Assembly (NCBI GenBank): GCA_032622095.1
Contig: CP136064.1
Span: 194,277,948-194,341,947 of the forward strand
DNA from: Siphonodentalium dalli
Taxonomy: Eukaryota > Mollusca > Scaphopoda > Gadilida > Siphonodentaliidae
DNA length: 64,000 nt
Direction: 5' to 3'
In this document: one piece after another, positions 1,261-61,657 of the stretch
How positions within the stretch are numbered: the stretch's first letter is position 1
Layout of the letters: each line of letters begins with the position of its first letter
The notes under the pieces: generated by a model
What the model was told of the DNA's origin: nothing
The model's input: the letters and a program-made list of their open reading frames with translations, nothing else
Database searches by the model: none
Position numbers and translations under genes: made by a program

Positions 1261-1392
1261 CTACATTGTGTATTCTCTATGAACTCTAGGGATTTTGGGA
1301 TTCCATCTCCGTGACCCATAGCTCGTACGTGGTCGCACTGACAACAACGCTTCTCCGTGTCTTGTTTCAACTTCTTGTATGATACCCTGTGT
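1261..1392 (-). CDS. KY-like gene exon 8 (terminal)
   Basis: This exon is preceded by TTAATTTCAG and starts in phase 0, matching exon 7. It gives 43 residues and a TAG stop. The sequence after the last Trp of exon 7 (IIQEVE, then VRPR) resembles the return helix of dynein stalks, which often reads WV..I..Y..V..V.PKR. That similarity and the nearby AATAAA support the exon, although it is short. Confidence 0.5.
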   Translation of the reverse strand, partial: TQGIIQEVETRHGEALLSVRPRTSYGSRRWNPKIPRVHREYTM

Positions 1393-4300
1393 CTGAAATT
1401 AACGAACCGTTATGAGAGTGTATAGAATATACTTATATGGGACATACTAGATTAGGAGGAGGCAACTGTTATCGAAATTAAGAACACCCAACTTACTGCG
1501 AAACGAGTAGACATTATCGGAATGTTGCATAGATTATGCCGGAATCAATGAGAGAATATGCGTCAATGTGATTCCATCAGGTGTTTGGCAAGCTTCTAAG
1601 AGGGTAAATGACTGGAAATCGAGTTACGCTCATCAAGTTTTATCTCCCGAGTAATCTTTAATGCAATTTCAACCAGTTTGGCCATGAATATGGCAGAGAG
1701 CTACACGACGTTCTTGGCAGACGTATTCACTAGACATATATCTTGTTCCACCCATATCCAGAACTTTCCCCGAACATCAAGTGTTTCTATACATGCACCC
1801 ACCACCAAGGGGCATGATTATATGCATATTGCATGCATGTACAACATGTTCAATGCCAACTACATTGGCCCTTTCTTTATCAAATACTTATTTACGAACA
1901 GTCCCCTTAGGAAATTGTCTGATAATAAGTTCAACAAACTTTGAACTGGACATTACTGTGCACATGGAATTTGTTTTGTTCTGTCTGTCATCTGCTTAAA
2001 GATGGATTATCTCTTTGTAAACATGTATTATATAGTTACCGGGGTATAAAATATTAGATCTGAATCGAAGACTCCTGTCCGGAAATGCTTCTATCGATTA
2101 ATATTAATTTTATTTCGAATATTTTCTGGTCTAAAGAGGTGTGTTTGTTCACCTAACGAACAATATTGGTTACTGTTAACATAGACCAGAAATTATATTG
2201 TGCAATTTTGTCACAAATAAACGTTAATTATACTCATTATCGCTTATATCTGTGGAACAAAACAGTACAAACAACCAATCTGTGACATTTGACATTCGTT
2301 GCGTAGCCGTAGGAACAGCCCAGTGCTCTATATCGCAATCCGGTCTCATCCGAATGGTCGGTTCTAAAAATAGTAACATAAATGGGCCCGATTTAATATT
2401 CGAAATAAAATCAATATTAATTGATAGAAGCTTTTCCGGACATAGGACTTCAGTTCATATCTATTATTTTATACCCACGCAACTATTTAAAATTTGTTAT
2501 TTAAAGAGATAATCCATCTTTAAGTGTCCTAAACATCCCTCCAGATGAATAATATAGTGCATTCAAATGTATGCTTTTATAACTGATGAGATAATTTATT
2601 TAGTACGAAGAGGGTTAAAGTGGTTCACACATTACCAATACTTTCAGATATTCTTATCGATAAGTGAAATTGGATTGGGCGTCTCTAATATTTAACGATT
2701 TAGTTTCACTGTAAACATTCCAATTAAGGACAATCCGTGGTCACGTCGTTGTCGTTGTCAATACATTTGGGAACAAACTATGGCGTTTCAGATAATACCA
2801 TGAACACCTATGAAAATATATTTATGAAAAAGCATACCCAGACATAGAAGGTGGCCACTCCGGCGCTGACAGCTCTGACCTGATCCAGGTTATATATGAG
2901 GAGCATTTCTTTAGCGCCCATGCAAATGTCAAGACCCAAATCTTCTATCTTAAATGCCTCTATCTGCTTCATAAAGGATTCCTTGCCGATCCGGCCGAGT
3001 ATTGCTTGAACTTTCAGCCAGTCCTGTTGGAAATAAAAATGAAAGGGTCAGTCAACCCGAAGGGCCATATGAAGTTTGGGATCAATTGGCTGACAAATGT
3101 TGGATGTATGGGCATGCCGAAGTATTTAGCGATGCAAAGAATAAATGCCAAGAGGGCTGCAGGTGGCCATATTTTTTGATTGAATATCGTTCAAATTCGA
3201 TATCTCTCATCTAGAAGTGATCCTGAACATGCACGTATATTTTTATAATATTTCTGCAATAAATGTCGGACGCAGGATGTGCCGATGGATTCCAAAATGA
3301 CGCTAGCAGCCATGTTGTTTAACGATATTTGGAAAAAAATGATAGCTCCCATCTAGTGATCACCCCGAGAATTCATTTGAAGTTTGGTAACGATCGGATG
3401 AGAGATGTGACCTGTATACGATGTGCCAAAGGAAATTGTTGAAGGACGGACGGACTGACGAACCGACGACAGTCCATGGCAATAGCTAAAACTTTACTTA
3501 GTCAAGTTGAGCTATACAGTAATATACATGTACTGTACCAATGTTCTCTATATCAACATTATCGAAGAACACACACAATGAATTGTAGTCAACAGTCGTC
3601 AACTGGAAACCACTAGTCTTAAATCAGCGTATATTGTTGAATACTTATTTGTTGAAATGTTTATTATCTGTAATGTCGAAAATAGGAGTCATTCAGGAGT
3701 TATGCTCAACTCACTACTATTATATTATGGCCACGCCATTGTTCGCGTACTCTCAACAAATTAAATTAGATAGTAATTCAAGTTGAATATTTGTCGCTAA
3801 AGCACTATTTCTGGTTGGTCGAGAATTCCTAACTTTAGTTTTCAATTTGGGTTAAATATTTTGAATGTACCACCCTACTATAACAACAAGCGTAAAATAT
3901 ACGACACCGCTCAGCCAAGAGTCGCGTAATCGCGAGTCAACCGAACACGTACATATATGTCTACTCGCTGTTTCGAGTAAACCATTGCAACGTACTCAGA
4001 GATTTTATCACCGAAAAAGGGTTTTGGCATGTGATACAGACAAAAGAATTCGTGCAGTTTCTTTCATTTTTGTGTGTGGTTTGAACTACGACGGAGACAA
4101 ACGTACCCTAGCTGTTTCGTATGACATTCGGGGATTCGAGCATGGCATATTTATGAACTCGCTGGCAAGCTGGCTCGGCTCGTACGCAAACTGTGTTCAT
4201 GCTCGAATCCCCGAATATTCAACTCAACAGAGTAAATCTCCTGAATATAATTCCAAACTATCATTTTGGTTAAAATAAGAATATTAAATCACTCCAAATG

Positions 4301-7300
4301 GCAAACCTTTTATCGGAGAAATACCATGAAAACTATTCGACAGTTGGTCTGGTTTTCGGACACGGAAGACCAAACACAATGCATTTTTTCTTGGAGCGGT
4401 ATATCTTAATGTTAGAAAATTGGAGGGGGGGGGGGGCATCCCCAAAACTAGAACCCATAACTACGCCCTTGGTGTATGTGTGTGTATGTTGCTTTTTTTA
4501 TTAAAGATGATGAGAAGTCAAATTTACCTGTGTTTGTTCATAATAGTGACCGAGGATCAGCAGCGTCGCCGACATGACCGTGTGAACTATGGGGCTAGGG
4601 GCCGCGTAGGATCGGATTTCTTGCAGAGTTTTGTTTTCTAGAGCCAGGATATCATGTCGCAGCCTCTGCATCCTCAGCAATCTCTCGATGTTATCCTTTG
4701 CTTTTCGCATCTCGACACACAGCCTTCTGGCGAACATAGAATTGTCGGCTTTGTCCATGACATCAGCTAAGGACTGGAGACAACGGGATTCAATTGATTG
4801 TTCCAACTCTAAAAAAAATCCATATAACAGTGAGATATGTCATGCTCCTGGTTTAATCCTTCCATGACTGGAGCTTCCTGAATTTTTGCAAAAACCCAGT
4901 GCCACTGCATCCTCTTATATATGCGAGGCTCCAATAGGTAGCCTAGCATATATAAGAGAATGCATCGGCCTAATAATAGTTACCTTGATACTCGCATTTA
5001 TATACGATAATGCACTGGCACAGGGTCTTTAATGCTGCACCAGCGCAGTCCCGCCATGAAATGGTTATGGTAAGCCGATGAACTAGTATCTCCCAGAGCG
5101 CACACTTCGTCTATTTATTAAATACATTACAGTAATTTTACAAACAAAAATATTCTCGTGTTTGAATGATCGTTTTAGAAGGATGTTTCAATTAACAATC
5201 GACAGTGTGTCTGCTGGCGTCGAACACACATTGTTTACGTGCAACTTATTGACAGCCATGAATTTGAAGAAACAACTCTTTGTCCACATATTGATGCCCA
5301 ACACTGACCAACGACAGTCAAAGGTATATGTACAGTTAACGTCATCACATTTGGGGAAAATAGTCGGTGTGTTGCCCATTGCAGCCATAGACATACACGT
5401 TAAAATATTACAACGCAAGCCAGATAACAACTCCACAAAAGTTGTGAACATAAGTTGTGTGATAGAAAGGACATGGTTGGATATTCGTCTTTCCAGCTGC
5501 CGATGTCACTGACGTTGATTTCATTTTACCGTTGGTAAAGGGACCAAAGATTTCCAAAATGTTGATTTGGTTACCCAGTGTACCCAAATTTCGTCTGCGA
5601 ATCATAAACGTTATTATTTCCCAGTCTGCTTCAACTATAGGTGAAATTCACAGATTACGCATGTCAGCATTTTTTGTTGACGGGGTCATTGTGTCTATTT
5701 TGTCTTTGAATTAATTTTGAAAATGTTCTCCAAATTGAACCAGACAACAAACTTATACAACTGAGGAATTTATCTTGAGATTGGATATCCTGGGTACTCT
5801 ATTCAATGTCTCGTATATCCCGGGTATGATATTCAACGTAACCATGCCCACGTGACACGAGACTTGATCTTAGGTGAGTGCACAAGCAGTGTTAACACAA
5901 CTAACCTTTCTTCAGTGCGATGAAATGTAACTCATTACTAGCTTCATCTATTTCGATGCAGTTTTCCGGTTTTGTATTTGGCAATTGTTTCAATCCAGCA
6001 ATGGCGGCTTCGATATCGGCGAGATTTTGTTCACATAGAGCTGTCCTCAATTTTAGTTTGGTGGCTCGTTCAACCAGATCTTCACTACTCATCAACTCCG
6101 CCCCGTCTTCAAATTGATCGTAATCCACAATCTCGCTGACATTGGTGTCTTCGGCGTCGGACGCAAAATAGTCATACGCACTTTGTTCTTCAGCGGATGA
6201 ACTGAATCCATCATTTTTGTTTAAATTATGGGTTAATGATGTTCGGCCTAGGCACCCTTCATAAGTATTCTCGAACGTTTTCTTGTCGTTTTCAGAGTTT
6301 TGATTGTGCAGCAGAACTTGATCTTGAGAAGCAGCATCCACACTATCGCTTCTGTTTTGAATAGGTGTGAGTATCCTTCTATTCGGGCATTCAACATTGA
6401 TAGTATCAACAGTCTGCCCGTCTTTCGCAGATGATTGACGAACTTCTCCATCACCAAGACGACTCTGTGACGTCATACCTTGCCCATCTGACTGATCCCT
6501 CGATTGTTTGGAATGCATATCTGATTGAGCACGTGGTTGCAAAACCTCTGGCTCCCCTGATGGAGGTTTCTGTGCAGAATCCATGGGCAATTTTTCCAAA
6601 CTCTTGCTTTCCATCTCGCGTTCGTCCACGCTCTTTTCGTTCGTACCGGAAGGGCTACACGAATTTCTGCATTTTGGAGAATGTTCTCGATTCGCATTTA
6701 CAAGGTATGGAAAGGACACATCTTTACCATTCGATGTGTTTTCGAGCACTCGTTCGGAATAAGATTCGGAAAACTCTGGTTGCTCGTCGGCGCCATATTT
6801 TCCCTGTGAGCTCCGGCCATTTTGACACGAAACCTTTATACTCCTTCCGTCGTCACATTGACTGTCGGTTATCATTCCTGAGTCGAAACGGTCAGATGTG
6901 ATCTCAAAAACATCTACGCTCGAACAACCGGAAGCTGCGTTATGACGAATCTCCCTCTCATCAGTCATAAGTGATTCTGGTCTATTAGTTTGAGATGGAG
7001 AGGCAGACGTTCGATGTCTTGTCCTACTTGTTTTGCCTCTAAGTTTGGACTGTCGTTCTTGGTTTAGAGCTGCCGAGTTGAGCGTTTGGTTCACATCATC
7101 TGAGCAGATGGATTTATAGTCGCTGTCACTATCATGCTTCCCACATTCATCGACCAATCTGCTCGGTGCTTCTGATGGTATCTGATCTGAAAACATAATA
7201 ACAATATTGTTGTTTTTATGGTAATTTCCGAATCCACAGTTTTAATTGATGGCGAGACCATATTATGGGGCCAGCGTGGTCTAATGATTAAATTATTAAT

Positions 7301-10300
7301 TCTATGTGTTAATTTGAATTATACTTTACGCTGCCTTCATAACAACCGCGTAATCTAGTCCAGAATATATAGTCACATGCGGCGCTGCAGTTTATAGAAA
7401 CGCAGAAATGATTGCCCGAATCGTTCATATACCCACTCAAGATTATCCTTCATTAAATGCAGATCGGAGAAGTGGAGTGTATGTGATCCATAAATTTGAA
7501 ACCAAACCAAACTTATAAGTGGCTCGTTTGGCAGACATTTTGGATCAAATCGTCTGCTTGTTACTTAAATAAGCTTCCTCATACATGCAGAGTAATGGTT
7601 AAATGTTGCTGGCAATCAATATACCAAGTATATCTACACACGTTCGAAGCCCGAGGTGTAGATTTTGCAGATTTGTTTGCTAATTATTGGGTAGCTTTGA
7701 ATTCAGACGCCAACCTGAACAATCTGATGTATGATCAGCCAAAACCTAACGCGAACTCACATTGGTCTGATATGTTGATAGTTTCGCTTGTAGTTTGCGT
7801 TACGTGATATTCTATGATATATTCGTAGGCAACTTCGAACCGACAGCAGGAAACTGATTTGCTCTTTGCGACCACCTTTGCACCGTAAGTCCCTTCCTTG
7901 GGCAAAACAATAGTGAAGTGTATCACATCACCTTGATGATATTCGCCAACCAAGTTCTTTGCGTCCATCGGCGTTATCTCCTTGTTTAAAAGTACGAGTG
8001 AGGCATCAGTTGGTTTCGTTGTTTTGAACATAATTTTCAGTTTGTTTATGTCAGTGTAAATTAAACCTGATATATGACTTATTGGAACTAATCCAAGATT
8101 AGAGCATGCCATTTTCGCACCTAAGCCGTTTTCGAGTCCTTTCGGAAATCCGTGAGAAAAATGCGGAATATTTTGCTCACCGACCACCATATAGCTACAT
8201 ACATCAGTGATGCGACCTCTTCCGCTTTTGACATATATTATCAAAGAAAATTCCCCTGGATGTGGAACTTTTATATTGAAAAACAGCATACGTCCTTTTT
8301 CCCTTCGGTAAATGATACAGTCCTTATGAATAACGCTACCAGAATCGCCGCAAAACGAAAGCAGGGGAAGCAGCTGCAGTTCGCGATCAGAACTCGTTTC
8401 CATAAACACGAGTTCAATGTTGCCGTCTCCGGAGCGTATCTCGCCGTTTTTGTGATTGACTGGTATCAATCCAGCGTTGTATGTCTGCAAGCTGGGACCC
8501 CAGCAGCTAGATTTGCAGGACGGGAAAGGCTGACATTGTGGGTGTGGCTTGTCGAACATTATTTTATACACTGCCACAAGATCGTGCATGTTTCCGACCC
8601 TCTCCTTTGTTACATCTTTTGCTTGAAGTTCCAATTTGTACATCCCGTATACAGGTGCCCGAATTCGCAAACTTATCGCATCTGTCCCAAGACGCTGTAG
8701 AAAAACAAAGCTGTTAAGTTTTCGGACCGGCTTATTTCGTCGAAGCAAAGACAACGAATATCTGAAATCTATTGTGTGTGTTATATCCTCTGGAACTGAA
8801 AACTGAATTTCAACTTCTCCAGTACTAACACAAAAAACAGAATCGTTGTGAGTTACTGCTCTAAGATTTAGGTTAAAGTATCTATCACCAACGAATAACA
8901 TTGTCTCGAATTTGCACTTAGATATTGGAAATTCGAGTAACTGCCAAGCTGGGTCTGCCGGTAGATGTGAATATATCAACTGTTGGGGAGCAGTGAGAAA
9001 ATAGTTCTCATTCGGAGTACACATTGTGATATCCTTGCACTTCTCGTTTCTGAGTTGATCGTCTCTAGAATTCGGCATCACCCCATAGTGGTCTGTTTCC
9101 ATGCCAACCACACCAGACCCCCAGTAGCAGTTAATAAATCTCCAGTTTTCCTTTATAAGAACAGCGTTCCATTCTCCGTAATGTTTTTCTTGTTCCATTT
9201 GTTCACCGATCTCGTATGAGGAACCTTTGACATTGCCGTGAATGATCACACAAGGGATATCTGTCAATCTGAAATGAAAATCGTTACTCGTATTTAAATT
9301 CGCCCAGTACTATTCTTCGCTCAGTTTTTAATTCGCGCACCGTGCTGCGCGAATTCAAAACTGACAAAAATACTTTCGTTAAAGACTTGTATTTGGTGAC
9401 AGTTTCAGTTCTTAATTGTTCCTGAAGGTACATGTGTAGATTAAAGACCGCCATGACAAAACTTAACATTGAGTAGATAGTAACTGCATCAACATTTTGT
9501 TGAGAAGATGGGTTGTTATATGCTAAACATAATAATTCTGGCATTCGTGTAGTACGGGAAAACAATGAAATGAACTCGAAAAAGTGCGCGTTTACAAACA
9601 ACCACGTAGGTGGCTGCTTTTAGAGAAAATCAACATTTTGGCTGGATGTATTTCAAATAGTTGGGTCGATTTATTTAACTGAAACTCTATGACCACATTG
9701 TCACTTCGTTGTTGTGGATATTGAGATACATGTATGCTTTCGCGTCCCTTCGTACGGCAATATGTGTATTTCTTACAAGTATTGCAACATCGAAGATTTT
9801 ATCACCATTCGCATATGAATAATAGTGTCGAGAATGCATGCACACATGTAAATATAATTGTCTATATTAAGTTCAACCTTCCGTAATGTGTGTACAAGTA
9901 ACTCAATAACATATCCGTCATATTTTCGATGTAGTTTAGTATATATAAGGATTAACTGTCATTGTGAAGGGTTTTGTAAATATATTTAAATCGAAAAGTG
10001 TATCGTGACAAGATCAGCCCAAAATACCCAATAGCACCCTTGGCAAAAGTTAATAGGAACAATTTCTCTTCATGTTGAAACCCGATGATGTATTAAGTCA
10101 ATCCTGCGCGAGTCAAAATGCGCCCAAAGCATTACGCGTTCGTCTTTCCAAACCTAATGACGTATCGATGGTGTTATTAGCTTGGTGTTATGAGGCGTTA
10201 CGCATTCACCGAGAAATAACTGCAACTAGCCACGTGGGCGCCGACCAATCAGAATGCTGGATTTAGTGATGACAACACTTAGTGTGTAAATATACATTCA

Positions 10301-12978
10301 TGAGTCGTACTATTTTTCTGTCTGTTTAAAAATAATACGCCGTGAATATAAATACGAGTAATAACACATACATTTGTCCAAACATGCATGATTACAATTC
10401 AACCTTTAGTTATTCCCCTAATATTCAAGACTCAAATGAACCTCCATCAACTTCCTATACGAGCAACTACATGTACTATAGGCAAGTTTAATTTCGATGG
10501 TTTGATTCCCAATAAACCAGGATTGGAGTTCCCCAAAAAAGAGGGTGACCTGGTTATCTGGGGGATTACTTGCCAAGTGTCGATGGTTTCTGGGTGCAGT
10601 AACATCATTTCGTGGTAACAATTTGTGCGATCTGTCTTCGGCAACAAATCTGACGTCGTTATATGACCGAGAGGCTGCAACGGAGATGAACAAAACGGCC
10701 AATCGAACGTTAGCGTGTTCCAGTTTTGACTTACCTGCACAGTGCGCTGAAGAACTGAGCATATGTGCCTTTGGAGTTAACTATTCGCCATATCATGTAC
10801 ATGGGTGTGTCTGTTTCTGGGGCAGTTAACGGTATATTGATATCGTGTAGCGGGAGTGTTGTAATCCAGACATACAACACTCGCAGTCTCGCGAGGTCCT
10901 CGTGTACACTTGATGTCAAGTGACTGACGAGATTCTGCATTGGTGTCTGGAGAAATTTGAATGGGACCTGGAAATAAATAACACAAACGCGAAGATAAAA
11001 AAACATCGACACTGGAGAATCAAGAACATGCTAACGCCCTCAAGATCGTATTATTATGCATATATAATATAAAATGCACTACCTCAGAATTCCGTTAAAC
11101 AACCAATCCTTCAAATTATTACAACAACTACGACTTATCACTGAATGTTTCTCATTCACCACACCAGAAAGCCTCCAAATATGGACAAAAAATCTACTAC
11201 ATTTGTAATCTGATTAAATACCCCCCCCCGATACTTCGCAAAACGACATTCAGTCCACATTCCAACTGAGATACACTTCATCAGCAATGTTAGTTGTTAT
11301 ACTATGCATTGTGTTCCCACAATAAAAATCCTCAAGGGTGGCCCAGCCATTGTTCACGACTAAATATCGAAAGCCACCTAAAGTGGTTATAGAAGTTACA
11401 TACGGTAATAAAGAGACATCCGCAAATACATATATCCTACACAAAGTCTAACCGGCATGCAATATAGCGAGTACGTTATTAATCAAAGTTACCCCATAGC
11501 TCATATGACATCGCCCGATCAGCCTATACATGGCGTAATTAAAACGGATTAAATATGTCTTGTCCAATTTGACACCATATATATATACGTGTTCTATACC
11601 ATAACACATTTATAATACAGATCCATGAGTACACTAATAGAAGGGTTTGGTAGGCAAAATATCGACTGACAAAAGTGGAAGCTTTAACACGTTTTGAATT
11701 TTTGTCATCTCTGGTCAGCTCAGTAAAATTGTTTGCTCGCCTCTCATAAAGAGCGTCAACGTTTCTGTCGCCCAAAAGCGGTATAACACAAAAAGCGAAT
11801 AGTATGTGAGACACAAGATTGTGGCAACACACACATTCGACTTGAAAGTCATTTGCGAGAGAATTTCCCTGTCACAAAACTACTTATGTTGTTGGACACT
11901 TAAACAAGAAGCCACTTGTGATGTTATTACCACGTGTTTTACAGGGAAAACAACAACCAAATGTTTGATACAAATGGAACTGGAAGGCAATAATCGTTCT
12001 TTTAAAATCAGCTCACCTTTGATGCTCGTTTGTCGACGTTGGCATATTTCGCTGGAATGAAGATGTCTGACTTGCTATTTTTCGGTGGTTCCGGTGGAGG
12101 GATATCGATGCAGCCATTCTTAGCGTCGTGTGCAAACACGTGGTGAGTCTTCGAATAACGAAACGTCGGGACTATTCGATACGTTGCAAGCAATTTGTCG
12201 GGAGCATCAAGTGTTGTCTGAAATGTACAATATACAAATAGTTTATTTATTTGTCGTAGCCATTTTTGAAGCTCCAAAAAAATAAAATCAAGTGAGACCC
12301 AGATTGGCGTTTTTTTAACAACAATAAAAGTCTTTCAAATGCATAGAAATTCCAGGACACAGTTGCCTTTGTTTGATATTAGATATCGATGCGTTTATAA
12401 AATTTTGCATGCAACCGAAGTTAAAAACATATTATAGACTTGTTCGGGTTCGTGAAATTGATAAGTTAGTACTCATGCGCTATGCCAACATGTGGAATTT
12501 AGCATTCTACTGACGTCGCCGAAAATTTCAAAGAAATCGACCATACCACTCCATGTAAAACATCGTCTGAACTACGCCCAATTGTAAAGATTTACACCTC
12601 GATTCGAGACGCAACTATCGGCGATAATCTAACAAAAATGATTTTCGCCATCGAGAGTCATTGCATTTAATTAATATTTTAGAATAACGGCGTGTATCTT
12701 CATTTTGGATTAATATTCATAACAAATAACTACTTTGAGCAAGATTATTCTCAATTTCTCTTTGATCACCCTGCCAGAGTGTTTCACATCACTTTCATGA
12801 CACGGGCCGAACTTAGACAACTATTAGCCTCAAAATGACACTGTAATAAGTGGAGCATATATATATATATGATCACTGTATGGATGTCGTGGTCAACATC
12901 CACAATTGTACGTGGACTGACGTGGAAGCTAATAAGATATGATGAGAAACTAACCGTTGTGGAAGCACCACATCCCAT
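1261..12978 (-). CDS. KY/hillarin-like transglutaminase-fold protein with dynein-stalk-like C-terminus (8 exons)
   Basis: Eight exons join on the minus strand with matching phases: 12978-12955, 12217-12017, 10967-10735, 9268-7761, 7186-5906, 4808-4528, 3023-2838 and 1392-1261, giving 3,846 nt or 1,281 aa. Seen: an MGCGAS N-terminus suited to myristoylation and palmitoylation; a KY/hillarin transglutaminase-like core at about 60-230; Ig-like repeats at about 265-655, two of which begin GLIPV and GLVPI; a Ser/Asp/Gln-rich linker at about 657-1020; then helical sequence with EIRSY..P.P and, 30 residues on, DW, as in the end of dynein heavy-chain stalk helix 1 and the microtubule-binding domain. 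Known: KY/hillarin proteins act at the cytoskeleton and in muscle. Inferred: a membrane-tethered scaffold that may bind microtubules. The triad positions read K141, G184 and N199 instead of Cys, His and Asp, so peptidase or transglutaminase activity is unlikely. The first and last exons are the least certain. Confidence 0.8.
2000..2519. mobile_element. TTAA-flanked MITE with ~130-bp terminal inverted repeats
   Basis: TTAA at 1996-1999 and 2520-2523 flanks a 520-bp element that starts AGATGGATTATCTCTTT and ends with the reverse complement. The inverted similarity runs about 130 bp inward with indels. There is no coding capacity. TTAA duplication is the piggyBac-type target preference, so it is probably a non-autonomous piggyBac-like element. 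It lies downstream of KY exon 7, in intron 7. Confidence 0.7.
2838..3023 (-). CDS. KY-like gene exon 7 (dynein MTBD-like)
   Basis: The acceptor TTTCCAACAG precedes GACTGGCTG and the donor is TGG|GTATGC, both phase 0. The 62 residues start DWLKVQ and end FYVW. In dynein heavy chains a DW or SW lies at the start of the microtubule-binding domain and a Trp follows the conserved S.A..L element, and both are present here. Reading through the donor would give only nine more residues before a stop, so a truncated alternative end is possible. Confidence 0.65.
3050..3520. repeat. Degenerate modular repeat (GAAGTTTGG / GTGCCGAAGGATT family)
   Basis: Modules with the phrases CCATATGAAGTTTGG, GACGATCGG and ATGTGCCGA recur here in KY intron 6 and again, in better condition, at 47400-48185 and 59040-59833. 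The segment ends with a CGGACGGAC-type microsatellite. No protein domain is visible in any frame. Confidence 0.55.
4528..4808 (-). CDS. KY-like gene exon 6 (coiled-coil / stalk helix)
   Basis: The acceptor is a T-run followed by AG, entering in phase 1 to complete a Glu codon, and the donor is CACAG|GTAAAT in phase 0. It gives 93 codons of charged helical sequence, ending with a segment that carries EIRSY, a P.P pair and an aliphatic stretch ending LGHYYEQTQ. In dynein the same order marks the end of stalk coiled coil 1. Confidence 0.7.
4889..5035. repeat. Hairpin-bearing repeat, relative of the element at 13620-14048
   Basis: It is bounded by CAGTGCCACTGCAT-type and ATGCACTGGCACAGGG motifs. 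Inside, a strong hairpin pairs CTCTTATATATGC with GCATATATAAGAG around 4909-4966. The same words make up the inner hairpins of the larger inverted-repeat element at 13620-14048. It lies in KY intron 5. Confidence 0.55.
5906..7186 (-). CDS. KY-like gene exon 5 (disordered linker plus start of helix)
   Basis: The acceptor ATGTTTTCAG enters in phase 1 and the donor AAAG|GTTAGT leaves in phase 1. The 426 full codons are rich in Ser, Asp, Gln, Glu and Arg, with no fold visible until about the last 70 residues, which turn into a charged helix (ATKLKLR, LADIEAAIAGL). The long single open frame and matched phases support it. The linker probably separates the KY region from the stalk-like tail. Confidence 0.75.
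7761..9268 (-). CDS. KY-like gene exon 4 (transglutaminase-like core end and Ig-like repeats)
   Basis: The acceptor TTTCATTTCAG completes an Arg codon and the donor is CCAAT|GTGAGT. It starts LTDIPCVIIHGNVKG and goes on to EWNAVLI and WRFINCYWGSG, the KY/hillarin signatures normally carrying the catalytic His (here Gly184) and Asp (here Asn199). Beta-rich repeats typical of KY/hillarin tails follow, two of them starting GLIPVNH and GLVPISH. This is the most diagnostic exon of the gene. Confidence 0.85.
9322..9363. repeat. Short hairpin in KY intron 3
   Basis: AGTTTT..ATTCGCGCA pairs with TGC.GCGCGAAT..AAAACT around a small loop. It sits just upstream of KY exon 4, within the intron on the coding strand. 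No function is evident. Confidence 0.4.
10735..10967 (-). CDS. KY-like gene exon 3 (start of transglutaminase-like core)
   Basis: The acceptor TTATTTCCAG enters in phase 0 and the donor GTGCAG|GTAAGT leaves in phase 2. The 77 codons carry the helical SHLTSSVHEDLARLR segment and RVLYVWITTL, then SKGTYAQFFSALC. In active relatives a Cys occupies the place of this Lys141. Confidence 0.8.
12017..12217 (-). CDS. KY-like gene exon 2
   Basis: Sixty-seven codons lie between TACATTTCAG and AAAG|GTGAGC, phase 0 at both ends. It ends DIFIPAKYANVDKRASK, which fits the start of the KY/hillarin transglutaminase-like domain. A short proline run (DIPPPEPP) precedes it. Confidence 0.75.
12955..12978 (-). CDS. 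KY-like gene exon 1 (N-myristoylation signal)
   Basis: An eight-codon first exon, MGCGASTT, ends at ACG|GTTAGT in phase 0 and joins exon 2 in frame. Gly2 with Ser6 fits the N-myristoyltransferase consensus and Cys3 would suit palmitoylation. It is tiny, so the call rests on the donor, the phase and the meaning of the peptide. Any upstream non-coding exon is not resolved. Confidence 0.6.
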
Positions 12979-14048: not shown

Positions 14049-14557
14049 GGAATACAGGCTCGGACAGAATGATGTTGCAAAAAGAAAATGTCTAAGTACA
14101 AAAATGGCGGATAACTGCACTAAAAAAGGTCGGACGGACCTCATAATCTCAGGTATACCATGATAGGCCTACTAAATATGTTTGCCAAGTTTCAAGATAC
14201 ATGACTGGAAAATGAAGGAATACATGGACAAGCTGATTCCAGTATACCCCAACAACTTAGTTATACGGGGTATACAAAATAAGGTACGAAGGTAATATCT
14301 AACGGGACCTCTAAATCCACAACAGTGAAGGCAATGGTAGAAATTTACAATTTACAAAATCGGTTATGATATATACTACAAACAATACACACATGGAAAG
14401 ACTTTATAAACTATAGAAATAATTGCTATATATATCAAGGAGAATGTTAAATGCAAATTGAAGAAACAATCCTGAAAAAAAAAAAAAGTAGGCACATATG
14501 GGCAAAAGACGAAAGCAATAATAAAAAGCTTGGGAAATATTCAGAAGGTGTCAGACC

Positions 14558-15737
14558 GGTTTTCCGAAGACCTATTACTACCAAGGCCCACAACTCCGAA
14601 GACCCGATTCTCCGACGGCCCATAACTCCGAAGATCCGATTCTCCGAAAGCCCATAACTCCGAAGGGTCGATTCTCCGAAGACCTATAACTCCGAAGACC
14701 TATAACTCCGAAGGGCCGATTCTCCGAAGACCTATAACTCCGAATGCCCGATTCTCCGACGGCCCATAACTCCGAAGGTCCGTTTTATCGGGGTATCATC
14801 GTTTACTAAATAGTGTACAGTCCAGTGGCGAAGACAAGGGGTCCCAAAATTCCCAATGCCCCCATTAAACCTCTACTTGCTATTTCAGACAATATGGGCC
14901 CCTACCAAAACATGTCCAATGTCATGTAAACGCCCGGAAATCGTTCATGGGGCATCAAAATATTCAAACTTTTCCTACTGCCCTCACCTAAATGGGAATC
15001 CTGGCCCGCCACTGACTATACACCAGATACTATAACGTTACGTTGGCCCATGAGATGCCAGAGTAAAATGTACAGGGGTGAACGGGGAAGAACTTGTCGC
15101 CCCTGTGCATGTTAGGCTACTCTGACATTCTTGCAGCATTTCGTTATAATATACCCGGTGCACACCAGTGGCGGAGCCAGGGTTCCCATTTAGGGGTGCA
15201 CATTAATTAGCATATGTGGGGGATATGTGGGGGATATATCATGCATATGATATGCCGAAAGCATATCACGAAGGCCTGATTTGGGGAGCGCATACATGGG
15301 AGGGGTCGCCCCCAATCGTTGGTCCGGGGGCTCCCCTGGGCAGAAACACTGTGAATATTTGAATGCCTAGGAGGGATTTCCTGACGTTTACATGACATTT
15401 GACATGTTTTTTGGGGGCGGTCTTCCCTAGGGCCCCATTGACCCCACCACTGGACTGTATACTATTTAATAAGCGATAAAACATGATCTTCGGAGAATCG
15501 GACCTTCGGAGAATCGGATCTTCGGAGAATCGGCCTTTCGGAGTTATAGACCTTCGGAGTTATGGGCGTTCGGAGTTATAGGCCTTCGGAGTTATGGGCT
15601 TTCGGAGTTATGGGTCTTCGGAGTTATGGGATTTCGGAGAATCGGGACTTCGGAGTTATGGGCTTTCGGAGAATCGGGGCGTCGGAGAATCTGACCTTCG
15701 GAGAATCGGACATTCGGAGTTATGGGTCTTCGGAAAA
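14558..15737. mobile_element. Foldback-like element with arms of ~19-bp repeats
   Basis: The left arm (14558-14783) is a run of ~19-bp units of the type CCGATTCTCCGAAG or CCATAACTCCGAAG. The right arm (15484-15735) carries the same units inverted (CTTCGGAGAATCGG, CTTCGGAGTTATGG). The inversion continues inward through ACAGTCCAGTGG at about 14817 and CCACTGGACTGT at 15453. The loop holds hAT-like terminal words (CAGTGGCGGAGCCAGGG at 15171). The architecture resembles foldback transposons, and no transposase is present. Confidence 0.7.
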
Positions 15738-15947
15738 ACGCCACGTAACCCCATATTTTGGTACACCAAAATATGGCGACAACGACCCACCCAGCGTTAC
15801 TAAGGATACACGCGTATAAATTAGGTGGAATCTCTGCATTCCTTACAATCGCTAGAAGCAGAATCTCTCTACTAAGTATAATTTGAGGTTTCAAACCGTC
15901 ATGTGCCTTTAGGCTCTGTACCAGTCTGAATAGAACCAGAAGCAGTT

Positions 15948-16587: not shown

Positions 16588-19500
16588 TCAATGAAATCTA
16601 CCCGATGATGCAATGAAAGTTTGCGTATTGCGAAACAATTTATCATTTAAAGTATTGGATAGGTTGCTTTGACCAAAGAGGATATCTTCAATCCTATCAA
16701 CGAAAATTCCATTTAGCCAAAGGCGTTGGATGAATATTAAGCGACTCTCTTCAAATAACGGGCACTGGAAGAAAAAATGTGAGGCGTCTTCAATATAAAA
16801 CCCACATTGACAGTGAGCTGTTATAGAAATATAGTTTTCAAGTTTATCAAAATTTAAATCGCTGCAGTTATTCCTTAGCTTGGTGTGCACGATGTTCCAT
16901 TTGCGAGTGCCTGAATTGAAGTATGGCGGCGGTTTTGGGGGGAATATAGGCAATTTGTCATACATTAATTTCAATATGTCGGTTTTGGTACTATCAGATG
17001 AACCATTTATTACCACTGCATTCCATTTAATTACCATCTCAGGCAGAAAGGTCGATTTAAAATGTTCTGTATTGTTGCGTTTCTGTAGGAATAATAATGG
17101 GTATCGATGTGAGTAGGTAGACTGATCTTTAGCAAATGTCGGCAAAAGTGTACTCAGGTAATTGGGAGCTTTACCAAGAATTATTTTCTGCCAAGTATTA
17201 AATTTATGGTGTTCGCGTCTGGTGTAAAGTGTAGGCCAACCTACTTCAGTGAGGAGTTTTTCATTCGAAACAGATTTATTTAACCCACTAACAATTCGAG
17301 CAGCATCATAATGTATCCGATCAAGCAGTACAAGAAGGGTATTCGGTGCGTGAGCCCAAATTACATCTCCGTAATCCATAAGTGGCAAAATAAAGGTTTT
17401 GTACATACATTCCAAGGTTCGCCGATTAACTGTGAATTTCAATCGTCTCAATTGCGATAGGCGAGATCTTAGGCGTCCACACAAATTTTCTATTTGCTTG
17501 TCCCAATTGAGGTTAGACTGAAGAAACACACCAAGGTGTCTATGTGTGTCCACCTGCTCTATTAATCGACCGTCCATTGCGACACTTAGGGTATTATAAT
17601 TAGATGAGAGGGAAAAATTTATTATTTTTGTCTTGGAAGAGTTGAATTGTACCAGCCATTGTTTGGACCACACAGATATACTTTCTACGTCTGTTTGCAG
17701 ATTATGTTCACATAAGGTACTAGCGTCATCGAATGAGATAAAACACGTGTCGTCGGCGTACATACGCGTGAAAGATATTAAATTCTCATGTATATCATTT
17801 ATAAAAACTAGGAAGAAGAATGGGCCAAGGATTTATCCTTGGGGCACTCCTGCTTTCAGTTGCAGGGGACTCGAAAATGTTTGTCCAACTATTACTCGTT
17901 GTGTCCTGTTAGATAAATTAATTTTTAATCCAGGCCAGAAGTCGTCCATTGACTCCGCATTGTTCAAGCTTAAATAACAGCCCCTCGTGCCAGACTCGTT
18001 CAAAAGCCTTGGAGATATCGCAAAAAATAGCACATGTGCACAATTTCTGATCGAGAGCCTGGCACAAGGAGTGTTGTATTTCCAGCAGCTGGTATAGTGT
18101 GCTGTGGCCAGGAATGAAACCGGACTGATAATCATATATTAATCCGTTATTAAAGAAATGTTTGGAAAGGTATTTCAATGCCACTTTTTCAAAGATCTTT
18201 CCAAGAACGGGTAACAGTGAGATTGGTCGGTAATTGTCAGTAGCGGATCGGTCGTTTTTTTTATGAATTGGAATAACATTCGCCTGTTTCCAAGAATCTG
18301 GAAAGCATCCCGATTCAAATGACATTAAAAATAAAATGCGAAGAGGGACTACCACTCGGTCGATCGTTCCTAGTAACATGCGAACGGTAATTCCATCGTG
18401 ACCGTGTGCCTTATTTGGTTTGGTCGATTGTATGGCTTCAGTTATATCATCGATCGTGAAAGGTAAATCTGATATATTATTATCACATTTTTTTCGGAAA
18501 ATAGGAAGGTTGCATTTAGAATTGTCGATATCTGAATTAGCAACAAATTTTTCATTAAGGAGACAGGCTTTGGAATCGTCATCAAACACCAAATTTCCGC
18601 TGCTGTTTCGCAGGGGTGGAATGCAGGAGTTCGGTGCATTATCAAGAAGCTCTTTGACAATGTGCCAAAATTTTTTTGCTGATGAATCGGACTTTATTGA
18701 AGTCTCGAGATCTTGGTCAAATTTAGCTTTTGCATACTTTTTCATGTTATTCACAGAATTTCGACTCTTTTTGTACCTGATCCAATCTTTCGGTTTCCCC
18801 GATTTTTGGGCTATGTGGCGTAAACGATTTCTACTACGGATGACAGATCTTAGTTCAGTATTGAACCAACACTTGTCGTTTTTTCGGATAAGAACTTTCT
18901 TTCTGGGAACTGTTTCTCTCATTATTGAGAGAAATTTTCTAGAGAATACACAGGTCGCCGAGTTTATGTCTTCAGTACCTTTCAGAATGTTATTCCAATC
19001 TAGTTCAAAAATCAGTGACCGAGTTCGTTCAAAATCAGCATTTCGGTACTGCCAAACAGTACGATAAAATGACTTTTGTGGACTATACTCAACGGCAACG
19101 TATGCATATACTGCATAGTGATCTGATATACCGAGATCCAAAACATCAGCATGATAAGAAACAACATCTTCACTGACTAGAATGGGGTCGAGGAGGGTAC
19201 TAGTAGTTTCTGTTACTCTAGTGGGAGACTCAATCAGGTTTCTCAAACGGTAGGCATCTTGTATAGTGTTTATTTTAGAGCCGGGGATGATCGCATTTGA
19301 ATTGAAATCTCCTGTGAGTATTAGCGGCAAGTTAAGATCCAATGCAATGTCTATAGACTCATCTAAAAATTTCCAATATTCAGGATCGCAAAATTGATCA
19401 GATCTGTAGGATATGCACAATAAGTAGCTAGTTTGGGGCATATAAATTCTGAACCACATAACCGAGTTATCAAATTCAAATTCCGGTATACGCGAAAATG

Positions 19501-19810
19501 CTATATGATTTGCAAAATAAACTGCAATGCCTCCCCCAGAGTTTGATCCATTATTTCTTATTGGTTCACAAAAGGATTGCATCAATATATTTTCGGATGG
19601 AAACGTATCATCAATGTGTGTTTCGGTGAAACAAATCACATCATAATCGTTTAGTAAGTAGGCAATTTTGGCGAGTTTGTGTCTTAAGCTCCGTATGTTT
19701 TGGTGAAATATCGAGATATGATGCAGCTCATCCGAAGAGGAGGTCGAATTTGTTCCAGGATGTGGATGGATATCTCCACAAATAATCAGGAGTAGAGCAA
19801 CAAGCGGCAC
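16588..19810 (-). pseudogene. LINE ORF2: endonuclease plus reverse transcriptase (broken)
   Basis: The upstream part (19810-17918) has the exonuclease-endonuclease-phosphatase motifs HQNIRSL, CFTETHIDD, LTGDFNSNA and SDHYAVYA. The first half of reverse transcriptase follows: YRPISLLPVLGK, SGFIPGHST, and CDISKAF with the catalytic Asp. After AWIKN the frame shifts near 17930 and continues to AGVPQG, where a stop replaces the usual Ser codon. The last part (17763-16588) starts MYADD, the second catalytic motif, and runs through the thumb to a Cys/His-rich end. Near the N-terminus, LLLIICGDIHPHPG resembles the 2A-like GDI..NPGP motif of CR1/L2 ORF2 proteins, but the final residues are altered. 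No start codon is certain. Confidence 0.88.
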
Positions 19811-19940
19811 CAGTCGGAAAGCTGTTTTTATACCAGATAAATTGGCGGAAAAAATTTGAGTTTTTCCAAAGTACTTTCACAAATCAAAGCCATAATTAGC
19901 GTAAGTGAAAAGCCCTATGGAAGCACGATACTGTTGGATA

Positions 19941-42956: not shown

Positions 42957-44176
42957 TTAAGAATACTTAACAGGTCTGTAATAATAAGCAGACTGAGAAT
43001 CGATAACGTTGGATTTAGCACTATCAGCATAGAGTTCGTTGTGTGGCACCGATACTGTAGATTCCGTTACAGGACTGTTGGCGTAGTAAGAAGAACCGAA
43101 TTGGTACGGATGCTGATAATCGTAACCATAATGCTGATGGCCGTTGAAATTATACGTCGGGTTGATCTGACAAGCAGGCGCTGATGGATAACTGAATGTA
43201 GCTGTCGGATAGGAACACTGTTCGTATTTAGCACTTGTCTGTTGAATTTGCGACACCACCGGCTCAGATAAGTTGTATCGTTGAATAGCACGTGGTGGCG
43301 AGCTGCTCGGGATATCACAGGTGTAGGAGGAGTCTAATTTATAATCAGTGAGCGGCCTATTAATATCGAACTCTGGGCTGGAATTCAATGTCTCGTAACC
43401 GCTGTCCACACTGATGTTGGGTGAAATGAGCATAGAATTAGATGATGAACACGGAGAAAGAGTCGGCGAGTTGACGGGCGAAACAGGTTCGGCGAAAGGG
43501 TGAACTGTTGTCACTATTGGTGATAGCCGGCTGGTCAACTGCTCGTCGGTTGTCGTTGGAACAGTTCCGTCACGCGGTGATAGATCACAAAACTGCCTCT
43601 CGAAGACTTTTCGTGGTTCGGCTGACATGTAGAGGTTATGCTTGAATGTCTCCATTCTATGTAGCAACGCTGCGGAAACACGGTCCCAGAACTGGCCGGC
43701 GTTCACTCGATAGTAGCCCCAACGCAGTGTGTTTGTGCCGCTCTCTCTGTCGACGTTAGATCGGTAGTCTCCCTTGGCGAATGTGGGAAGGCTGCTGGGG
43801 ACGATGGTCCAGAGGAATGTAGCTCTGCCGAGAGGTCCGGACTGGGGCTGACCGCGACCGACGCCGATCTTGGTGAAGCATTTGGTCTTGGAGAGGCTGT
43901 GTCTGACGGCGTTCTTCCAGTGCTCTCTTGTTGAATGTCGGAAGAATGAGAAGCGATGTTTGATGTAACAGTAGATCTCGGTGATTGGCAGGCAGAAGTT
44001 TGGAGATCTCAGGACGGCGATGTAAATGAGCTCGGTGTATGAGTAGTTGGGCTTGACGTTGATGTCGTCTTTGACGTCAAGGCGTTCGTAGAGAGCGACG
44101 AAGTTGTCGACGACTTTGCGGAGATCTATGTCGGCTTCTTGTGTGAGATGCGACTGGGCTTGCTGTTCGATGACAC
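42957..44176 (-). CDS. Forkhead copy 1, exon 2
   Basis: It encodes residues 28-433, including the whole forkhead domain. The acceptor is CCGTTTCAG. A longer frame starting MLVNNSN upstream is intronic read-through. Confidence 0.85.
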
Positions 44177-45188
44177 CTGAAACGGAAATGTTACTGTTAT
44201 TCACAAGCAATTAGTTATATATTTATTTCTCTCCTCCATCACATGAAGAGTTGCATGCATGAGTAACATAACAAAAACGTGAAGAAAAAAGAACAGTTCA
44301 GTAGAAACGAACAAATGTTTTCCACAATTTTGTGTTTTTATTGTAATTACACATTGCTGTATTATGAACATTGAAATGCTGAAACAGTTTTCCTATTTAA
44401 AGCTGCTAGTAATCTTCAGCATTCAGATCAGAAATCGATTGAAATCAAAATTCTGCCAGTCAGTTTTATTCTGTACAAAATCCGCAACACGATAGTATTG
44501 CACGTATTAATTGATCTATTTTTATACCAGAACATGTTCATACATAAAATATACAGCACAATGGCTAGGGTGGTCAGAAAAATCTCACATCGGCAGGTAC
44601 AGACAATTGTTTGCCTCTGCATCGAAGAAAAAAAGCCTTGTAGCTTTATGAGCGTTTCTTATGGTAAAACATATCGTTTGATAAATCGAAATTTTGATAA
44701 CAGTTGAAAAATTTATGGACTTTGTAAAATATAAAACTATAATAGCATTTTTATCTCTGAGACAAACTATTTACTGTACACTTGAGGCCTGTGAATAGTT
44801 TATCTTTTAGTTGTGATATGAATAACACTTTCCAATATTATTATTAGTATTATTTCTCAATAACATCATTGGATTGCATAGTTCGGTCCAAGTTGGTTGG
44901 TGAGAAAACATTGGGGGTGATGTTTCCAAGAAGCCTGTCTTTGACAGAAAGTTAATTTATATCCTAGGAAGTTCAGGGAAGAGATACAAGTACATCATCT
45001 AATTAGCGCACCAGATAGGGACACCGGCATTTCCACATCTGAGAAATTTTAGTCCAAGATGCAAGGAGAGGGGTATGGTATCGAAGAGACTGACTGCTAA
45101 ACATACCTGGTCGGTGTTGAAGAAGACGACGAACTTTTTCAGAGTGGTCGTCGTGAACGGCAAATTCATCGGAAACTTTGCGCTTCAT
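42957..45188 (-). CDS. Forkhead-domain transcription factor, copy 1
   Basis: Two exons, 45188-45107 and 44176-42957, join in phase 1 (CCAG|GTATGT and CCGTTTCAG|GTGTC) to give 433 aa. Residues 69-154 form a winged-helix forkhead domain (KPNYSYTELI, then EIYCYIKH, WKNAVRHSLS and FLWTIVP). The usual RHNLS of recognition helix 3 reads RHSLS, and a ~13-residue Gly/Pro-rich insertion precedes the final strand. The C-terminus is Ser/Pro/Tyr-rich, as in activation regions. A basic MKRK start and KVRR in exon 1 could help nuclear import. Role inferred: sequence-specific nuclear DNA binding. The Fox subclass is not resolved. It differs from copy 2 at D380 and A393. Confidence 0.85.
45107..45188 (-). 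CDS. Forkhead copy 1, exon 1
   Basis: ATG plus 27 codons (MKRKVSDEFAVHDDHSEKVR, then RLLQHRP) end at CCAG|GTATGT in phase 1. The intron to exon 2 is 930 bp. Confidence 0.8.
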
Positions 45189-53154: not shown

Positions 53155-54374
53155 TTAAGAATACTTAACAGGTCTGTAATAATAAGCAGACTGAGAATCG
53201 ATAACGTTGGATTTAGCACTATCAGCATAGAGTTCGTTGTGTGGCACCGATACTGTAGATTCCGTTACAGGACTGTTGACGTAGTAAGAAGAACCGAATT
53301 GGTACGGATGCTGATAACCGTAACCATAATGCTGATGGCCGTTGAAATTATACGTCGGGTTGATCTGACAAGCAGGCGCTGATGGATAACTGAATGTAGC
53401 TGTCGGATAGGAACACTGTTCGTATTTAGCACTTGTCTGTTGAATTTGCGACACCACCGGCTCAGATAAGTTGTATCGTTGAATAGCACGTGGTGGCGAG
53501 CTGCTCGGGATATCACAGGTGTAGGAGGAGTCTAATTTATAATCAGTGAGCGGCCTATTAATATCGAACTCTGGGCTGGAATTCAATGTCTCGTAACCGC
53601 TGTCCACACTGATGTTGGGTGAAATGAGCATAGAATTAGATGATGAACACGGAGAAAGAGTCGGCGAGTTGACGGGCGAAACAGGTTCGGCGAAAGGGTG
53701 AACTGTTGTCACTATTGGTGATAGCCGGCTGGTCAACTGCTCGTCGGTTGTCGTTGGAACAGTTCCGTCACGCGGTGATAGATCACAAAACTGCCTCTCG
53801 AAGACTTTTCGTGGTTCGGCTGACATGTAGAGGTTATGCTTGAATGTCTCCATTCTGTGTAGCAACGCTGCGGAAACACGGTCCCAGAACTGGCCGGCGT
53901 TCACTCGATAGTAGCCCCAACGCAGGGTGTTTGTGCCGCTCTCTCGGTCGACGTTAGATCGGTAGTCTCCCTTGGCGAATGTGGGAAGGCTGCTGGGGAC
54001 GATGGTCCAGAGGAATGTAGCTCTGCCGAGAGGTCCGGACTGGGGCTGACCGCGACCGACGCCGATCTTGGTGAAGCATTTGGTCTTGGAGAGGCTGTGT
54101 CTGACGGCGTTCTTCCAGTGCTCTCTTGTTGAATGTCGGAAGAATGAGAAGCGATGTTTGATGTAACAGTAGATCTCGGTGATTGGCAGGCAGAAGTTTG
54201 GAGATCTCAGGACGGCGATGTAAATGAGCTCGGTGTATGAGTAGTTGGGCTTGACGTTGATGTCGTCTTTGACGTCAAGGCGTTCGTAGAGAGCGACGAA
54301 GTTGTCGACGACTTTGCGGAGATCTATGTCGGCTTCTTGTGTGAGATGCGACTGGGCTTGCTGTTCGATGACAC
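53155..54374 (-). CDS. Forkhead copy 2, exon 2
   Basis: Residues 28-433, with an open frame throughout. Nucleotide changes from copy 1 are few and mostly shared with copy 3. Confidence 0.85.
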
Positions 54375-60437: not shown

Positions 60438-61657
60438 TTAAGAATACTTAACAGGTCTGTAATAATAAGCAGACTGAGAATCGATAACGTTGGATTTAGC
60501 ACTATCAGCATAGAGTTCGTTGTGTGGCACCGATACTGTAGATTCCGTTACAGGACTGTTGACGTAGTAAGAAGAACCGAATTGGTACGGATGCTGATAA
60601 CCGTAACCATAATGCTGATGGCCGTTGAAATTATACGTCGGGTTGATCTGACAAGCAGGCGCTGATGGATAACTGAATGTAGCTGTCGGATAGGAACACT
60701 GTTCGTATTTAGCACTTGTCTGTTGAATTTGCGACACCACCGGCTCAGATAAGTTGTATCGTTGAATAGCACGTGGTGGCGAGCTGCTCGGGATATCACA
60801 GGTGTAGGAGGAGTCTAATTTATAATCAGTGAGCGGCCTATTAATATCGAACTCTGGGCTGGAATTCAATGTCTCGTAACCGCTGTCCACACTGATGTTG
60901 GGTGAAATGAGCATAGAATTAGATGATGAACACGGAGAAAGAGTCGGCGAGTTGACGGGCGAAACAGGTTCGGCGAAAGGGTGAACTGTTGTCACTATTG
61001 GTGATAGCCGGCTGGTCAACTGCTCGTCGGTTGTCGTTGGAACAGTTCCGTCACGCGGTGATAGATCACAAAACTGCCTCTCGAAGACTTTTCGTGGTTC
61101 GGCTGACATGTAGAGGTTATGCTTGAATGTCTCCATTCTGTGTAGCAACGCTGCGGAAACACGGTCCCAGAACTGGCCGGCGTTCACTCGATAGTAGCCC
61201 CAACGCAGGGTGTTTGTGCCGCTCTCTCGGTCGACGTTAGATCGGTAGTCTCCCTTGGCGAATGTGGGAAGGCTGCTGGGGACGATGGTCCAGAGGAATG
61301 TAGCTCTGCCGAGAGGTCCGGACTGGGGCTGACCGCGACCGACGCCGATCTTGGTGAAGCATTTGGTCTTGGAGAGGCTGTGTCTGACGGCGTTCTTCCA
61401 GTGCTCTCTTGTTGAATGTCGGAAGAATGAGAAGCGATGTTTGATGTAACGGTAGATCTCGGTGATTGTCAGGCAGAAGTTTGGAGATCTCAGGACGGCG
61501 ATGTAAATGAGCTCGGTGTATGAGTAGTTGGGCTTGACGTTGATGTCGTCTTTGACGTCAAGGCGTTCGTAGAGAGCGACGAAGTTGTCGACGACTTTGC
61601 GGAGATCTATGTCGGCTTCTTGTGTGAGATGCGACTGGGCTTGCTGTTCGATGACAC
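60438..61657 (-). CDS. Forkhead copy 3, exon 2
   Basis: Residues 28-433. The only visible coding differences from copy 2 are two amino-acid changes six residues apart in the forkhead domain. Confidence 0.85.

Follow-up and report, generated by a model that had tools for sequence, protein, structure and literature searches.

The stretch of DNA analysed here (the window, 64,000 nucleotides of the Siphonodentalium dalli genome) carries at 12978-1261 of its minus strand, to which all features below belong, a gene whose predicted product very probably combines an N-terminal acylation-type signal, a KY/hillarin transglutaminase-like core with Ig-like domains and a C-terminal tail descended from the stalk head of dynein. 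The initial annotation had proposed that eight exons join with matching phases, and this was borne out: the rebuilt exons give an in-frame product of 1281 residues without an internal stop, all seven introns are of the GT-AG type and the phases are compatible at every junction. The stop-to-stop frames that contain exons 4 and 5 span 524 and 446 codons, respectively, whereas 20 mononucleotide shuffles of the window gave no frame longer than 213 codons.

The KY/hillarin part of the gene

Exon 1 (12978-12955) encodes MGCGASTT, an N-terminal myristoylation-type signal of the MGxxxS/T pattern (MGCGAST) with a cysteine adjoining the glycine, in agreement with the suggestion that the N-terminus fits myristoylation. 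It is followed by exon 2 (12217-12017), which covers the N-terminal region with the pattern PPPEPPK...F...Y..VD.RA, by exon 3 (10967-10735) with the first half of the transglutaminase-like core and by exon 4 (9268-7761) with its second half and the KY Ig-like domains. Exon 5 (7186-5906) encodes a Ser/Asp/Glu-rich linker, disordered by composition. The reading of the middle part as a KY/hillarin core with Ig-like repeats holds up, as the protein matches the KY-type Ig-like family PF23265 (E 1.4e-42) in three stretches from residue 272 to about residue 644, corresponding to domains at 8521..8913 (E 1.3e-20 in the genome search), 8167..8481 (E 1e-4, the weakest of the three) and 7795..8118 (E 8.7e-8). 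These domains are located after the transglutaminase-like core, the same order as in KY (kyphoscoliosis peptidase) and hillarin, which are probable binding scaffolds; the Transglut_core Pfam match itself lies below the cut-off (E 0.036). The window copy differs from KY and hillarin in its replaced catalytic sites, its N-terminal MGCGAS signal and its dynein-stalk-like tail, and we know of no description of either protein that includes such a tail.

The core is probably catalytically dead, judging from its residues at the catalytic positions. The nucleophile motif in exon 3 (around 10755-10775) reads SKGTYAQ and contains no cysteine, by motif reading alone, since the weak PDB alignments of the core (to FAP246 and 9crn) begin just past the Cys position. 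The Asp site (9130-9132) reads Asn, and an Asp stands opposite this Asn in both weak alignments. At the His site (9175-9177), two residues before a Trp, both the ungapped reading and the 9crn alignment show a Gly, but in the gapped weak alignment to FAP246 the FAP246 His falls opposite a His of the window core that lies two residues upstream of the site. Hence, by motif and weak alignments, the Cys-His-Asp residues of vertebrate KY were not found in the window core. Among the tail-bearing cores tabulated (those at C3:139.63 and C3:245.75 were left out of the table), the His site is non-His in all seven and Asp is retained in two, and of three cores without a known tail one retains both His and Asp. 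For vertebrate KY, passages of PMC6078408 describe conserved putative catalytic residues for which no activity was shown and a domain possibly co-opted for binding; for hillarin, passages of PMC3081291 describe a location at the axon hillock and action with septins.

Relationship of the tail to the dynein stalk

The dynein-stalk-like tail starts with exon 6 (4808-4528), whose first part (4806-4663) encodes a helix at the position occupied in dynein by the CC1 strand and whose second part (4662-4528) begins the segment resembling the dynein microtubule-binding domain, MTBD (QEIRSYAAPSPIVHTVMSATLLILG). Exon 7 (3023-2838) supplies the remainder of this segment with the pattern DW ... S....A.FY.W, and exon 8 (1392-1261) carries H...L..V.PR where CC2 would begin in dynein, followed by the stop. 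The residue order of the dynein stalk and MTBD previously noted in the C-terminus is thus present, and profiles of the sister tails support its ancestry. Searched alone against the PDB, the window tail gave ten matches at E<=10, all of them dynein, the best being borderline (E 0.0049). One of these ten, 6rzb, is deposited as MKIAA0325. Neither the window tail alone nor five other single tails matched the Pfam MT family; in place of single-sequence Pfam searches, a profile was built from ten tails of the S. dalli genome. This profile found 68 matches in the PDB. Of the 60 listed, 42 have E<=0.001 (best 8.7e-11), and on our reading of the rows every one is a dynein heavy chain or a fragment of the stalk. 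The anticipated match to the dynein MT/stalk family (PF12777) was obtained with the sister tails and not with the window tail by itself: profile-profile comparison using hhalign gave 98.4% probability over 103 aligned columns. The likeness to dynein extends from the last part of CC1 through the globular head, including exon 7, and takes in the landmarks PP, DW, S and W.

The ancestry is also supported by the single-tail Pfam searches, in which four of the ten tails match the MT family (E 8.8e-6 to 0.001), one C9 tail exceeding the curated cut-off (25.4 versus 24 bits) and the other three remaining below it. A coincidental likeness between coiled coils is suggested by the long helices that open the tail, by the borderline score of the window tail alone and by tail T4, one of those without an MT match, which matches the coiled-coil family SKA2 (E 7.8e-4, below the SKA2 cut-off); single-tail Pfam scores near 0.001 are thus indecisive. 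Against coincidence stands, besides the hhalign result and the coverage of the globular part, the match of the ten-tail profile to the short MTBD chain 6rzb (E 2.4e-10), where the low bias of 0.5 bits indicates that the coiled coil does not drive the dynein match, and we regard such a coincidence as extremely improbable.

The protein stops 43 residues past the conserved Trp, and the complete antiparallel CC1/CC2 stalk is absent; since the tail ends where the second coiled-coil strand would start, it does not represent a whole stalk. It also differs from dynein in lacking the AAA ring, for which AAA_9 was searched, and several positively charged tubulin-contact residues, and the loop that separates its LG landmark from DW is three residues longer than in mouse dynein. 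The genome search with AAA_9 returned 61 matches, and of the best candidates the nearest on the same contig is about 67 Mb away and none lies near the sister genes, in line with the proposal that the protein has no motor. Structure prediction of exon 6 alone yielded helices (best model mean pLDDT 83.7, the other four 52-60), and of the 18 Foldseek matches listed for it no entry was a dynein or reached E<=0.001; the prediction for exon 7 alone (pLDDT 44) was unusable. Intron positions shared with true dyneins were also considered. Some dynein genes have introns near DW, but these precede the tail junction by 4 nt (C6) or follow it by 2 nt (C8) and were consequently not counted as evidence.

Sister genes and the integrity of the gene

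At nine places in the genome, the window included, a KY core is followed by a dynein-like tail on one strand at a distance of 3-23 kb. The tails at four of these places are weak in the single-sequence genome search (E 0.0015 to 0.6); the family profile raised three of the four to strong matches (2.9e-12 to 8.3e-19 on fetched frames), and the fourth, C3:245.75, was left out of this re-reading. The exon 6 donor GT and the exon 7 acceptor AG, the latter before the same codon, are found at all nine places, and the exon 7 donor is GT at eight and GC in the tandem neighbour. This neighbour has counterparts to all exons 1 to 8, including an exon similar to exon 8 (E 6.6e-4), and exon 2 has similar exons in the tandem neighbour (E 2.4e-4) and in two further sister genes, at C3:82.06 Mb (E 3.5e-5) and C9:178.83 Mb (E 0.006).

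A 24-nt candidate for exon 1 in the tandem neighbour encodes MGSGASVA and ends in the same phase as exon 1 of the window gene. A scan of seven loci with the strict signal pattern gave, besides this candidate, one other MG start, which has no donor and lies inside L018. The signal was not found in 9.9 kb upstream of the C9:178.8 gene, in 8.0 kb upstream of C3:245 or in 9.9 kb upstream of C3:82; as C3:82 has its exon 2 at the outer limit of the stretch scanned and none was found for C3:245, the C9 scan is the informative one.

These genes of the same plan favour a single gene in the window over the alternative that the exons from 7186-5906 onward belong to a separate one. Two genes wrongly joined, one of the KY type ending with exon 4 or 5 and a stalk-like one downstream comprising exons 6-8, would fit the tails at C9:100.76 Mb and C3:139.29 Mb, where no KY-like frame was found in about 20 kb upstream of each, also when repeated with tblastn, for which known KY loci did match. 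The whole-length search with exon 5, in which the sister loci fetched gave no match, would likewise fit. Such a misjoining is nevertheless very unlikely in view of the nine places with core then tail, the compatible phases and the direct comparison of exon 5 with the tandem neighbour's linker exon, in which the last ~53 residues of exon 5 (5906-6062) show a resemblance whose score is reached by 3 of 1000 shuffles. The linker of the tandem neighbour in turn resembles the presumed linker of the C9 gene (5/1000 shuffles). Direct comparison of the exon 5 end with that C9 linker was no better than shuffles (538/1000).

Tubulin contacts and possible function

Six positions forming salt bridges to tubulin are named for yeast dynein in a passage of PMC7042235, and we transferred them to mouse dynein numbering by our own mapping. 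The window tail retains three of the six, namely two residues of helix 1, E and R, and a basic residue in helix 3, and lacks the other three. Where mouse dynein has K3298, K3299, K3334 and R3382, the window tail carries E, N, L and A. Microtubule binding by the window tail is plausible, and the tail may be regarded as a putative binder; that the window copy functions as a microtubule tether is a possibility towards which we are slightly sceptical. The tail could instead be a dynein MTBD fold co-opted for another partner, with microtubule binding lost at least in the window copy, a serious alternative that we nonetheless think rather improbable. It draws on the acidic MTBD segment of the window (pI 5.59 versus 9.35 in mouse) and of tails T1 and T5, on the lost contact residues, on the missing CC2 strand that would hold the head and on the R3382 position, which is non-basic in all nine tails with a letter there. 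Yet by eye this site is basic in just four of six true dyneins of the same genome, and of the eight tails of sufficient length for scoring, five have a basic pI (8.1-10.1). Moreover, the E3304 equivalent is E in 9/9 tails, and those of R3306 and R3342 are R or K in 8/9 each, the R3342 column adjoining gaps.

Because the sister genes share core and tail, the gene may encode a motor-less membrane-cytoskeleton tether, and the best overall explanation, which we consider reasonably probable, is a motor-less KY/hillarin-family scaffold that would connect the membrane with microtubules or some related lattice. The window protein may be tethered by its N-terminal signal, which the tandem neighbour shares in its candidate exon 1: the N-terminus would be myristoylated, perhaps palmitoylated too, and hold the protein at the membrane. 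The KY/Ig part would bind partner proteins, a role also supposed for KY and hillarin; the disordered linker would serve as a flexible spacer, and the stalk head would bind the cytoskeleton passively, most likely microtubules. As both the AAA ring and CC2 are absent, the helix sliding by which dynein switches affinity cannot operate, and the result would be a link of constant affinity. More tentatively, and with some doubt, we propose that the gene family took the microtubule-gripping head of dynein, lost motor and second strand, and combined the head with an acyl-anchored dead KY scaffold as constant-affinity membrane-microtubule links, whose duplicates diversified into basic and acidic forms.

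To our knowledge, the dynein MTBD has been discussed only as part of dynein motors. A duplicated non-motor family carrying it would show that the module is reusable as a static binder and would supply natural single-strand versions with a broken affinity switch. The function of invertebrate KY/hillarin proteins is poorly understood, and such a family would suggest a direct cytoskeletal role for them. No description of KY/hillarin and dynein stalk in one protein was found in the open-licence literature, which is weak evidence, and the two are not joined in the passages covered of PMC9562170, PMC3081291, PMC6351634, PMC5549309, PMC6078408 and PMC7042235. The core shows a weak match to FAP246 (7n6g) that is not significant (E 0.04). 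FAP246 is an axonemal protein of Chlamydomonas and is not known to us to have a stalk tail. Common to both proteins are a transglutaminase-like stretch and the pattern F...P...IYS..P...WQLL.

Gene structure and the transglutaminase-like core

The genome of Siphonodentalium dalli is assembled as 2.23 Gb in nine contigs, with the window located at 194.278-194.342 Mb of contig C4. The eight exons with matching phases proposed in the initial annotation could be rebuilt in frame on the minus strand, from 12978 to 1261, yielding a protein of 1281 residues and seven introns that all follow the GT-AG rule. The stop-to-stop frames around exons 4 and 5 extend over 524 and 446 codons, respectively; when the window was shuffled 20 times at mononucleotide level, the longest frame reached 213 codons.

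The KY/hillarin core with Ig-like repeats, likewise part of that annotation, is confirmed by Pfam, where Ig-like_KY (PF23265) matches three stretches of the protein (E 1.4e-42), while Transglut_core itself stays under its family cut-off (E 0.036). Comparison of the core with solved structures gave four weak matches at E<=1, led by FAP246 (E 0.04) and the transglutaminase-like protein 9crn (E 0.066). The catalytic Asp site is occupied by Asn in both alignments, the nucleophile motif reads SKGTYAQ, without Cys, and the catalytic His site is Gly in the 9crn alignment. Since the FAP246 alignment contains a two-residue gap and pairs the FAP246 His with a His of the window protein two residues further upstream, loss of the catalytic His is likely rather than proven. 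Ten KY cores of the genome were tabulated by eye, those left out including C3:139.63 and C3:245.75 Mb. In all seven tail-bearing cores of this set the position two before the Trp is not His, and Asp is retained in two of them; the other three have no known tail, and just one of them, the core at C2:191.97 Mb, retains both His and Asp. We read the window core, on its residues, as a pseudoenzyme. Vertebrate KY, as described in PMC6078408, keeps its putative catalytic residues, yet no activity as an enzyme has been demonstrated, and a binding role has been proposed.

Relationship of the tail to the dynein stalk

The C-terminal tail encoded by exons 6-8 (about residues 1030-1281) had been likened to the head of the dynein stalk. 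Taken alone, it does not match the Pfam stalk family MT (PF12777), and its ten matches at E<=10 among PDB sequences are all dyneins (best E 0.0049); the likeness became significant once nine sister tails from the same genome were aligned with it (two of the ten tails being partial). The resulting profile gave 68 PDB matches, and among the best 60 of these, 42 lie at E<=0.001. On the basis of their names, their lengths and where the match falls, all 60 were taken as dynein heavy chains or stalk fragments. Some of the long chains are named otherwise ('AAA+ ATPase domain-containing protein'; 9fqr_Hl, 'Radial spoke head protein 9 homolog'; 9fqr_I3, 'Cilia and flagella associated protein 57') and are about 4,150-4,730 residues long, matched at the stalk location. 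Among the matches listed, 5ayh is the best (E 8.7e-11) and 6rzb the best short chain comprising only the microtubule-binding domain (E 2.4e-10). Compared with an alignment of mouse dynein and three dynein segments of this genome, the ten-tail alignment reached a profile-profile probability of 98.4% over 103 columns. Four of the ten single tails match Pfam MT (E 8.8e-6 to 0.001), that of the C9:178.80 gene alone passing the curated cut-off; among tails without an MT match, the sister tail T4 has a match to SKA2, a coiled-coil family, at E 7.8e-4, which does not reach the SKA2 cut-off.

The dynein match spans the end of the first stalk strand (CC1) and the globular head. As the protein stops 43 residues past the conserved Trp, the second strand (CC2) is absent, and no match to the motor-ring domain AAA_9 lies near the gene among those listed. 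Yeast dynein is described as contacting tubulin through K3117, E3122, R3124, R3152, R3159 and R3201 (PMC7042235), which we mapped, mostly by our own counting, to mouse 3299, 3304, 3306, 3334, 3342 and 3382 in the same order. The window tail carries N, E, R, L, K and A there, the 3342 column adjoining gaps, and has a pI of 5.6 in this segment. Eight tails had sufficient length to be scored, and five of them are basic. The real dyneins of this genome vary at the 3382 site (basic in four of six, read by eye). From these residues and charges, microtubule binding appears likelier for some sister tails than for the window gene.

Sister genes in the genome

A genome search with the window tail gave 21 matches in 13 places. 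At nine of them, the window gene included, the tail is preceded on its own strand by a KY core at a distance of 3 to 23 kb; for the longer distances we infer from order and strand only that core and tail form one gene. Searched with the single sequence, four of the nine places give weak tail matches (C3:139.65, E 0.0015; C3:245.40 and 245.75, E 0.11; C3:250.72, E 0.15), and the family profile lifts the C3:139.65, C3:245.40 and C3:250.72 tails to <=2.9e-12 among the fetched frames. The C3 places at 245.40 and 245.75 Mb (L024 and L025) form an inverted pair with identical match scores, and are either a recent segmental duplication or an assembly duplicate. The tandem neighbour, at about C4:194.255-194.272 Mb, has counterparts of all eight window-gene exons: a 24-nt candidate exon 1 (MGSGASVA), exons 2 and 3 by similarity, a KY core match, a linker exon similar to the last part of window exon 5 (score reached by 3 of 1000 shuffles), and exons 6, 7 and 8. 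The exon 6 donor is GT and the exon 7 acceptor immediately precedes the same codon in all nine tails read; the exon 7 donor is GT in eight and GC in the tandem neighbour.

No KY core was found within ~20 kb upstream of the tails at C9:100.76 (L008/L011) and C3:139.29 Mb (L014), which may be joined to something else. The place at C4:107.22 is a weak match, and that at C6:152.39, which has AAA_9 matches ~11 kb away, probably belongs to a genuine dynein. Dynein-stalk exon matches also occur at C4:107.23 (in L035), 107.70 and 108.03 Mb, with no nearby AAA_9 among the matches listed; they could be fragments, exons separated by very long introns, or reuse of the stalk elsewhere. The 107.23 Mb match, the only one of the three read, resembles true dynein.

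A fusion of KY with a dynein stalk head is not known to have been described, nor did one turn up in the open-licence literature searched; invertebrate protein databases may well contain such proteins already, under automatically assigned names.

Possible mode of action and neighbouring features

Hillarin is reported to be located at the leech axon hillock and to work with septins in cytokinesis (PMC3081291), so the KY part is most naturally read as a cytoskeletal scaffold. At the N-terminus, the signal is suggestive of a membrane anchor. The linker has a high content of Ser, Asp and Glu (disorder-promoting residues 67%, versus 48% in the core). The affinity switch of dynein is described as a sliding of the stalk helix (PMC7042235); this would be impossible in a protein without CC2 and the ring, so any binding by the tail would be of constant affinity.

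Elsewhere in the window, three near-identical 417-residue forkhead-domain frames lie in tandem on the minus strand (42957-44210, 53155-54408 and 60438-61691; Forkhead E 2.2e-20 in a domain scan of the first), which looks like a recent triplication. A LINE-like element (16588-19876, minus strand) has its endonuclease and reverse transcriptase split across two frames, RVT_1 in the second falling below the family cut-off. In repetitive DNA at ~14450-15800, frames on both strands read SELWAFGVIG-like repeats.
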